Origin: Methylotuvimicrobium alcaliphilum 20Z
GTDB lineage: Bacteria; Pseudomonadota; Gammaproteobacteria; Methylococcales; Methylomonadaceae
DNA: 64,000 nt
Direction of reading: 5' to 3'
NCBI RefSeq assembly: GCF_000968535.2
Contig: NC_016112.1
Location: 496,001 to 560,000, forward strand
The notes beneath the pieces are model-generated. The model saw only the letters and a program-made list of their open reading frames with translations, ran no database searches and was not told the origin of the DNA. Position numbers and translations under genes: made by a program. Shown piece by piece: positions 24,645 through 46,990 of the stretch. Position 1 is the first letter of the stretch. Every line of letters begins with the position of its first letter.

Positions 24645-24683
24645 TCAGTGGCTTCGATAGTCGCGACGAAGGCGTCGCTCCCA
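24645..24683 (-). repeat. REP-B (reverse) forming the 5' exon of intron copy 1
   Basis: The hairpin GCGACG-AAGG-CGTCGC lies at 24663-24678 and is followed by TCCCA (24679-24683). The intron begins at the next base. It is the left half of a head-to-head REP-B pair whose right half is at 25472. Confidence 0.7.
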
Positions 24684-25450
24684 GTGCGCCCAGGAGGGCA
24701 CAAAATCAGCAGGGTGTAAGTCCCTGTCGGCGTAAGCCATAACGTCGTAGCTGAAAGTAACTGCGTCACCGCGAGGTGGGGTGGAGAGCAACTGGAGGCA
24801 AAAGAGCAGTCCGCAGTAAAGCGAATCCGATTCGGCAGGGTAAGGCGGCGAGTCCCCTGGGAGTCGACGAAGCCTGAAAACCATCATTTACGTTGTTGTG
24901 GCAGATAAAACGATAAATGGGCCTACCTTGTGGTTGGGAGTGGAATGTTCAGAAGGTATTGTGAAGAAACTGGGGAGACCTGTTACGGAGGTGACCGTGG
25001 CAGGAGTCAGAACCCTTATATTACCGTAAGTCGAGGAAGCTCAAGGCAAGGCGAGGATAGTGTGGCACCGCTGGGAAACCAGGCGGAAACAGAGAAAACA
25101 AACACGAGCCTAAACCGAGAGGGGAAAAGATGGTAAAAGCCGGCTAGCAAAACCGGCCATAGGAAAGAAGGGTAGGAAGGTGGAAACGAGGTAGCGTTCG
25201 GTGTCACGGCCATTAAGCCAACCTCAGGTAAAAGGCTTAAAGAGGCTCAGCCGTTGAAGGGAGCCGAAGGTAACGAATCAAACCGAGTTTGCGGGCTGAC
25301 GTGGTAACGCGGAGTAATGGGGTTCACCAATTAATAACACCATTGCTCACCAGCTTGTCCCGATGAGGAAACCACCGACTGGAGAGCCGTGTGCGGGAGA
25401 ACCGCATGCACGGTTCGGAGGGAGGGGAGAGAAATCTTCCCTACCCCTAT
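24684..25450 (+). mobile_element. Group II intron, ORF-less, copy 1 (767 nt)
   Basis: It starts GTGCGCCC and ends ACCCCTAT, fitting the GUGYG...AY rule. Domain V is at 25384-25416 (GAGCCGU stem paired with ACGGUUC, catalytic AGC at 25385-25387). A domain VI-like hairpin follows. The copy at 46042-46808 has the same length; I count two base differences. No reverse transcriptase is encoded; the usual ORF site in domain IV is short. Possible EBS1 sequences TGGGAG at 24858-24863 and 24935-24940 complement the 5' exon CTCCCA. It lies in the sense direction of the pilus operon, so splicing would restore the mRNA. Mobility would need an enzyme made elsewhere. Confidence 0.9.
25384..25416 (+). ncRNA. 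Group II intron domain V, copy 1
   Basis: 33-nt hairpin: GAGCCGUGUGCGG pairs with CCGCAUGCACGGUUC, with the catalytic AGC near the base. This is the most conserved part of group II introns and the strongest reason for the intron call. Confidence 0.85.
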
Positions 25451-25471: not shown

Positions 25472-25555
25472 GTGGGAGCGATCCCCTGATCGCGATTTCG
25501 AAGTCGGGTACGTTAGGTAACAATAAATGGTATCGAAGTCACATTAGCTAAGATT
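25472..25555 (+). repeat. REP-B (forward), right side of the intron-split pair
   Basis: GTGGGAGCGATCCCCTGATC then the usual tail ending TCACATTAGCTAAGAT. The bases between intron end and this REP begin CAG, as in the empty pair at 35.97 kb. Confidence 0.65.
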
Positions 25556-35948: not shown

Positions 35949-36080
35949 TCGAAATCGCGACGAAGGCGTCGCTCCCACAGAGGGCTGCGGACGCTCTGTG
36001 GGAGCGATCCCCTGATCGCGATCTCGAGGCCGAGAGTGTTAAGTAGCAATAAATGGCATCAAGGTCTCATTGGCTAAGAT
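35949..36080. repeat. Uninterrupted head-to-head REP-B pair (intron empty-site analogue)
   Basis: Reverse REP-B (GCGACG-AAGG-CGTCGC then TCCCACAG, 35971-35980) is followed by a forward REP-B with its full tail. It shows what the loci at 24.68 and 46.04 kb looked like before the group II introns entered, between 35977 and 35978 by analogy. Confidence 0.75.
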
Positions 36081-45959: not shown

Positions 45960-46041
45960 ATCTTAGCTAATGAGGCCTCGATACCATTTTATGTCACTTA
46001 ACATTGTCGGCCTCGAAATCGCGATCAGGGGATCGCTCCCA
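45960..46041 (-). repeat. REP-B (reverse, full length) forming the 5' exon of intron copy 2
   Basis: The complete REP-B tail is followed by the hairpin GCGATC-AGGG-GATCGC (46021-46036) and TCCCA (46037-46041). The intron starts at the next base. Confidence 0.75.
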
Positions 46042-46808
46042 GTGCGCCCAGGAGGGCACAAAATCAGCAGGGTGTAAGTCCCTGTCGGCGTAAGCCATAA
46101 CGTCGTAGCTGAAAGTAACTGCGTCACCGCGAGGTGGGGTGGAGAGCAACTGGAGGCAAAAGAGCAGTCCGCAGTAAAGCGAATCCGATTCGGCGGGGTA
46201 AGGCGGCGAGTCCCCTGGGAGTCGACGAAGCCTGAAAACCATCATTTACGTTGTTGTGGCAGATAAAACGATAAATGGGCCTACCTTGTGGTTGGGAGTG
46301 GAATGTTCAGAAGGTATTGTGAAGAAACTGGGGAGACCTGTTACGGAGGTGACCGTGGCAGGAGTCAGAACCCTTATATTACCGTAAGTCGAGGAAGCTC
46401 AAGGCAAGGCGAGGACAGTGTGGCACCGCTGGGAAACCAGGCGGAAACAGAGAAAACAAACACGAGCCTAAACCGAGAGGGGAAAAGATGGTAAAAGCCG
46501 GCTAGCAAAACCGGCCATAGGAAAGAAGGGTAGGAAGGTGGAAACGAGGTAGCGTTCGGTGTCACGGCCATTAAGCCAACCTCAGGTAAAAGGCTTAAAG
46601 AGGCTCAGCCGTTGAAGGGAGCCGAAGGTAACGAATCAAACCGAGTTTGCGGGCTGACGTGGTAACGCGGAGTAATGGGGTTCACCAATTAATAACACCA
46701 TTGCTCACCAGCTTGTCCCGATGAGGAAACCACCGACTGGAGAGCCGTGTGCGGGAGAACCGCATGCACGGTTCGGAGGGAGGGGAGAGAAATCTTCCCT
46801 ACCCCTAT
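46042..46808 (+). mobile_element. Group II intron, ORF-less, copy 2 (767 nt)
   Basis: Same length as copy 1 with two base differences noticed (near intron positions 156 and 369). Domain V is at 46742-46774. It is inserted in the same place of a REP-B pair as copy 1, but after a hairpin of different sequence, and is followed by CAG. No reverse transcriptase gene lies within 20 kb on either side. Confidence 0.9.
46742..46774 (+). ncRNA. Group II intron domain V, copy 2
   Basis: 33-nt domain V hairpin identical to that of copy 1. Confidence 0.85.
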
Positions 46809-46826: not shown

Positions 46827-46990
46827 GTGGGAGCGACGCCTTCGTCGCGACTATCGAAGCCACCGATACTCGGCAGCCGGGGATTTTATCGAAGCTCCCG
46901 ATGTCACTTGCCGGACGGGTTTTATAAACCCGTTCGTAACGTTTTATCACCCTAAGATGGGTTTTCGCTTCGCCTCTACCCATCCTACTG
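46827..46990. repeat. REP-B (forward) and half REP-A after intron copy 2
   Basis: GTGGGAGCGACGCCTTCGTC at 46827 is the right half of the intron-split REP-B pair. A single REP-A arm lies at about 46957-46990. Nothing else is seen up to 47078. Confidence 0.65.

Follow-up and report, generated by a model that had tools for sequence, protein, structure and literature searches.

A multicopy group II intron without a reading frame lies behind REP hairpins and probably selects them by EBS1 pairing

The 64-kb stretch of DNA analysed here (the window; G000:C2:496001-560000 of a 4.8-Mb genome) carries two copies of a group II intron that lacks an open reading frame. We consider it highly probable that this multicopy element works like a group IIC intron: it would insert at a REP hairpin followed by CTCCCA, use EBS1 for target pairing and depend on a reverse transcriptase (RT) provided in trans. 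Most likely, it belongs to a set of IIC-like introns that use the position behind dispersed palindromic repeats as insertion site and adapt their EBS1 accordingly. The two copies and their 3' domains are located as follows:

24684..25450, + strand: copy 1, ORF-less group II intron (GTGCGC...CCCTAT), with ends common to 14 identical or nearly identical full-length copies and an RF00029 match at its 3' end
46042..46808, + strand: copy 2, ORF-less group II intron, with ends as in the 14 full-length copies
25382..25450, + strand: domains V and VI of copy 1 (RF00029, 58.4 bits)
46740..46808, + strand: domains V and VI of copy 2 (RF00029, 58.4 bits)

Both copies are 767 nt long and differ by exactly two mismatches (intron positions 154 and 375), which confirms the equal length and the two-base difference reported in a first-pass annotation of this DNA. 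That annotation had also classified both elements as group II introns and suggested a covariance model as a check of their ends. Here, we found that the Rfam model RF00029 (domains V-VI, gathering score 40) matches both copies and that its match stops at 25450 and 46808, precisely at the proposed 3' ends; together with a conserved domain I fold (see below) this supports the classification. A search of the full genome recovered 14 full-length copies of 767 nt each and two partial ones: L015, which keeps the 3' half, and L016, a 5' remnant of 64 nt. Each full-length copy has at most 3 differences from copy 1 over the 767 positions, and the spread of the intron is therefore recent. At intron positions 375 and 403, all four variant combinations are present among the 14 copies, which suggests that the copies have exchanged sequence through gene conversion or recombination. 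In a plasmid collection, 19 records gave partial matches, none of which covered 80% of the intron.

The sequences flanking both introns, and a pair of the same repeats without an intron, are as follows:

24663..24678, + strand: REP hairpin type A (GCGACG-AAGG-CGTCGC = GCGACGAAGGCGTCGC), directly 5' of copy 1
46021..46036, + strand: REP hairpin type B (GCGATC-AGGG-GATCGC = GCGATCAGGGGATCGC), directly 5' of copy 2
25473..25493, - strand: facing REP type B with TCCCA, 3' of copy 1
46828..46848, - strand: facing REP type A with TCCCA, 3' of copy 2
35957..35977, + strand: REP type A with TCCCA, first half of an uninterrupted head-to-head pair
35999..36019, - strand: REP type B with TCCCA, second half of this pair

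As described previously for this stretch, a hairpin and TCCCA precede each window intron and CAG follows it, and the uninterrupted pair indeed reads CTCCCA|CAG (35972-35980). The two REPs of this pair form one 37-nt inverted repeat, which is 81% complementary. Each of the two window hairpins matches six times in the window when up to two mismatches are allowed, compared with 0.15 and 0.12 expected matches. Genome-wide, types A and B have 50 sites each (hairpin plus TCCCA, at most one mismatch), whereas a reversed-pattern control gave none. By position, we also identified 25 head-to-head pairs whose inner gap is 18-22; nine of them carry an intron. With these 50 + 50 sites and 25 pairs, the repeats show the REP/REPIN trait of a short palindrome present in many copies and often in inverted pairs. 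The intergenic location of the REP copies was checked around the two window introns. Flanks such as those of copies L007 and L012 suggest that the REP pair forms the centre of a larger dispersed element, the similar arms of which exceed 100 bp.

Each of the 14 full-length copies, and the 5' remnant L016 as well, begins directly after a REP hairpin with CTCCCA at its end; unrelated flanks, sought as a refuting case, were seen at none of them. Nine of the 14 lie behind type A (GCGACGAAGGCGTCGC) and five behind type B (GCGATC[A/T]GGGGATCGC); on the 3' side, CA follows in every case (CAG in nine copies, CAA in five). Thus, the proposals that REPs serve as landing sites and that the target is a hairpin plus TCCCA, and not one particular sequence, agree with the genome-wide data, but a restriction to REP-B pairs is not supported, as both hairpin types are used. 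The rule that introns sit inside head-to-head pairs held only in part. When the flanks were judged by eye, a whole facing REP (some with base changes) was seen in 10 of the 14 copies; it was truncated in L013 and absent in L001, L002 and L014. Since three copies lack a second REP, one REP half suffices.

Class C, g6, U1 and U2 introns are found directly behind rho-independent terminators according to excerpts of PMC8919778, and one might argue that the present intron aims at transcription terminators in a class C-like manner and uses REPs only as possible terminators. We consider this scenario very improbable. The sequence following the hairpin is TCCCACAG and involves no T-run, EBS1 is matched to TCCCA and, in relatives, to the base of the palindrome itself (e.g. 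GGAATC), and all 14 copies are located at REPs.

To pair with its target, the intron would use the following elements:

24678..24683, + strand: IBS1 of copy 1 (CTCCCA), six positions of which covary with EBS1
46036..46041, + strand: IBS1 of copy 2 (CTCCCA), as in copy 1
24858..24863, + strand: EBS1 of copy 1 (TGGGAG), terminal loop of domain I, located by covariation, scan and consensus fold
46216..46221, + strand: EBS1 of copy 2 (TGGGAG), same sequence as in copy 1

The covariation analysis started from 33 rows, after eight hits without a usable 5' end and six that were too short had been set aside. Five of these rows were dropped because the 5' end was misassigned or the alignment broken (L055, L082, L159, L061, L065), which left 28 introns with 15 distinct IBS1/EBS1 combinations. 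In this set, 87 of 90 positions pair between the loop at 24858-24863 and the six bases 5' of the intron. When the IBS1/EBS1 assignments were shuffled 10,000 times, the mean was 41.9 and the maximum 69 pairs of 90. An unbiased scan of all domain I positions also gave its best match at 24858-24863 (z 7.7). Resolved by exon position, 21-22 of 22 rows pair at each of the positions -1 to -6, but only five of 22 do so at -7. Folding of domain I, which had been recommended as a control, yielded a consensus structure (22-sequence alignment) with 90 predicted pairs, 54 of which show compensatory change; this conserved fold places EBS1 in a terminal loop. Of the two EBS1 candidates that the first-pass annotation had left side by side, 24858 is thus retained. 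The motif at 24935 was rejected, as it is kept as TTGGGAG or a near variant in introns whose IBS1 differs. For EBS2, we searched with the IBS2 windows -13..-9, -12..-8 and -11..-7, and no intron position exceeded a z of 3.2 or a pairing of 0.60. In the search for EBS3, several alignment columns fitted equally well.

A pairing of 6 bp is longer than that of IIC introns (3-4 bp; PMC7923331, excerpt), and this length would suit a simpler scenario, in which the choice of target depends on the 6-nt IBS1 alone, the hairpin is idle and the presence of CTCCCA in REPs is a coincidence. We sampled 422,835 bases outside the window and counted 75 CTCCCA sites, only four of which (~5%) belong to a REP. Extrapolated to the genome, this corresponds to roughly 780 non-REP versus about 100 REP sites, yet 14 of 14 insertions are at REPs. 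Therefore, the CTCCCA sequence alone does not explain the distribution. For CTCCCAC, the count is smaller (25 sites in 304,019 bases including the window) and 13 of the 25 are in REPs. Moreover, a stem of at least 5 bp that ends 2-9 nt 5' of the intron was detected for all 14 copies of this genome and for 13 of 16 relatives, although IBS1 differs in the latter; such a stem was present at 6.6% of 5,000 random window positions. The relatives in this test are 16 of the 33 rows, without the five dropped rows, the copies of this genome, L157, L166 and the rows already selected by pattern. At the pattern-selected sites (see below), 23 of 27 carry the stem; at L159 and L160, which lie behind CGCTCCCA, this test detected no perfect stem. 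With these data, an insertion guided by IBS1 alone is hardly credible.

The orientation of the copies was compared with the direction of replication. The dnaA gene is located at C2:1194-1400 and the GC skew is positive to about 2.3 Mb and mostly negative thereafter; it turns between the samples at 2.28 and 2.32 Mb, with one further positive sample at 2.40 Mb. It can be seen that the sense strand of 12 of the 14 introns is on the lagging-strand template, and that of the other two on the leading template, versus 25 of 86 empty REP sites on the lagging-strand template (Fisher p 8.7e-5). If the copy at 2,452,637 close to the terminus is counted as leading, 11 of 14 remain lagging (p 6.3e-4). Similarly, when a head-to-head pair holds an intron, it is at the half that faces the lagging template in eight of nine cases (p 0.039). 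A lagging-template bias has been reported for class C introns and for certain other types of intron (PMC8919778, excerpt). The REPs themselves differ in orientation: the TCCCA strand of type B is on the leading template at 38 of 50 sites and on the lagging one at 12 of 50, and type A is evenly distributed (25 leading, 25 lagging).

An intron that never inserted more than once could also have reached its 14 sites as a passenger, if a REP-intron-REP unit had been spread by REP mobilisation (RAYT) or by recombination between repeats. The REPs are embedded in larger dispersed elements whose flanks resemble one another (over up to 182 bp on one side), copies L007 and L012 are similar on both sides (120 and 149 bp, ungapped), the four combinations at positions 375/403 show exchange between copies, and five PF01797 (RAYT-type) hits are present in the genome. 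However, the copies are found at two hairpin types and the sequences behind the hairpins differ. When the 14 copies were compared, ungapped similarity of more than 30 bp on both sides was restricted to L007/L012, L008/L011 and L006/L013. Within 1.5 kb on each side of the five RAYT-type (PF01797) genes, neither a GTGGGAGC REP nor GCTCCCAC was found. Finally, EBS1 covaries with IBS1 across hosts, as an insertion by base pairing predicts. Spread as a passenger therefore appears improbable to us, and repeated insertion of the intron behind REP hairpins is the preferred reading.

Relatives of the intron were sought in 200 genomes, for which the best two candidates per genome were scored; in a separate search, 150 of 337 candidates were scored. 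Some match was found in 46 of the 200 genomes, including the one studied here. Of 20 loci fetched, nine contain a reading frame for an RT in which the two motifs looked for are present; one of the nine is partial. The first-pass annotation had suggested looking for a full-length relative with a reverse transcriptase, and such elements do exist. An RT-bearing intron in a MAG named Methylococcus (L073/L157) lies behind a REP-like hairpin that ends in CTCCCA and has the EBS1 TGGGAG, and another one (L087) lies behind a REP-like hairpin that ends in CTCCTA and has the EBS1 TAGGAG. The pattern CGCTCCCA|GTGCGC detected 27 sites in 26 loci (Thiohalocapsa halophila, 8; MAGs named Hydrogenophilus, 7, Nitrococcus, 2, Thioalkalivibrio, 2, Thiobacillus and others). 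Relatives behind the CTCCCA hairpin are therefore present in other proteobacteria. Having been picked by this pattern, the 27 sites can support the hairpin only and not the CTCCCA rule, and one of them (L164) appears to be a fortuitous hit in DNA that is unrelated. Matching REPs number 111 in the Hydrogenophilus MAG, 41 in a betaproteobacterial MAG and 15 in the Thiobacillus MAG; the counts for Thiohalocapsa (5), Nitrococcus (4) and genome G189 (0) were obtained with a fixed pattern spacing that misfits at least the Thiohalocapsa repeat.

In two other genomes (G188 and G182), the introns lie behind a ATTCCGGC...GCCGGAAT palindrome and have the EBS1 loops TCATTT and TCATTC, respectively. This palindrome occurs 305 times in G188 and 280 times in G182, and 12, 6, 1 and 0 times in G085, G058, G003 and G007; target copy number was counted for one REP pattern in six genomes and for one palindrome pattern in six. 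In G003 the palindrome occurs only once, so an abundant repeat as target is not established for every relative. In a tree of 22 introns calculated without the EBS1 columns, the loop TGGGAG (seven rows) requires at least four changes, all of them forced by well-supported branches, and the window intron and its near copy L079 (support 100/99) are placed among five rows with other EBS1 loops. The TGGGAG label is somewhat clustered on this tree (25 of 500 shuffles were as low). Relatives that sit behind other hairpin repeats with a matched guide suggest, at the level of sequence comparison, that these elements retune to repeats that the host already carries. Whether this amounts to a general strategy, in which the lineage repeatedly and convergently retunes a 6-nt EBS1 to a common palindrome of its host, is a matter on which we lean slightly towards yes.

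The intron of the window is devoid of its own RT. The corresponding stretch is:

25024..25357, + strand: non-coding domain IV stretch (intron positions 341-674), at the position of the reverse transcriptase ORF in relatives

This stretch has stops in all three forward frames and tblastn found no RT remnant in it; at the DNA level, domain IV shows only short similarities to L087 (positions 463-505) and L081 (458-496). A similar non-coding domain IV is present in L079 (94% identical) and in four introns from a different family within the order (56-66%), so the ORF-less form looks old. The non-coding stretch 341-674 is thus conserved across two families of the order. Presumably, the ORF-less intron moves with an RT supplied in trans. 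We found no intact cognate RT in this genome, in which the single RVT_1 hit belongs to an intron of another lineage, and thus present mobility is doubtful. This second, RT-bearing group II intron (L022, G000:C2:2445905-2447700) is located some 5 kb from copy L013. Its domain I is of the RF01999 type (105.6 bits), which differs from that of the window intron. Because the two introns match different Rfam domain I families, the resident RT is an unlikely helper. A related maturase remnant was detected at C2:2022442-2022796, beside a domain V that is 87.5% alike. The nearest RTs of the same genus (G005:C84:71464-72855 and G002:C1:1702838-1704115) contain two in-frame TAG each.

On this basis, we propose the following mechanism. 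After splicing, the intron RNA together with a trans-supplied reverse transcriptase would recognise a REP hairpin with CTCCCA, probably as single-stranded DNA on the lagging-strand template. CTCCCA would pair with the EBS1 loop TGGGAG and the RNA would reverse-splice directly behind the hairpin and CTCCCA. The target would be one REP half, the facing second REP being common and dispensable. In other hosts, introns of the same group would use other hairpins together with a correspondingly altered EBS1; several of these hairpins are palindromic repeats dispersed in the host genome. Should REPs be an intron target, with an EBS1 that covaries with the host repeat, a link between two repeat systems would emerge, and the retuned EBS1-IBS1 pairs across hosts would give a natural series. 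As one EBS1 serves two hairpins with different arms, the roles of shape and sequence in stem-loop targeting become testable, and head-to-head pairs allow the chosen half to be related to the direction in which the replication fork moves. The target specificities of bacterial group II introns named in a review are homing sites, terminators and attC (PMC4424553, excerpt). If tracking of host palindromes holds true, it would stand beside these, and a REP family would offer a renewable set of safe landing sites.

Compared with known systems, the window intron appears IIC-like, as judged from its stem-loop, the short IBS1 and the lagging template. It shares with group IIC introns the insertion directly behind a stem-loop (all 14 own copies, 13 of 16 relatives), an IBS1-EBS1 pairing, the lagging-template bias and, in its relatives, an RT without endonuclease domain (PMC4424553, PMC8919778, PMC10190682, excerpts). 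Three RTs of relatives match RVT_1 and GIIM only (E up to 0.001), a feature that is not exclusive to class C (PMC4424553, excerpt). The best solved relatives of two RTs are 6ar1 (GsI-IIC RT, 227 bits) and 7uim (223 bits), and the unrelated resident RT also matches 6ar1 best. In contrast to group IIC, the stem-loop here is a REP or another dispersed palindrome without T-run, the stem in this genome has 6 bp compared with about 12 bp in the solved E. rectale IIC target (PMC10190682, excerpt), and IBS1-EBS1 involves six covarying pairs with a drop at the seventh. Domain I resembles Rfam RF02001 (group-II-D1D4-3; gathering score 32), with 31.3 bits for copy 1, just under the gathering score, and 34.8 bits for L160. 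Like group IIC-attC introns, the element would be specialised on a recurrent folded DNA site, at which a stem-loop replaces IBS2 (PMC7923331, excerpt), but its target is a REP with CTCCCA and theirs is attC with TTGT/T. In the open-licence literature, we found no paper describing group II introns that target REPs, except for a table row in PMC1525189, according to which two of nine copies of a Pseudomonas putida KT2440 group II intron are at REPs; this row is the closest published hint that we came across. The same source (excerpt) lists the REP-targeting insertion sequences ISPsy8, ISPa11, ISPpu9, ISPpu10, ISRm22 and ISRm19, every copy of which occupies a fixed place in a REP, as the window intron does. 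However, those elements are DNA transposons that break the REP, whereas here a ribozyme is located behind the hairpin.
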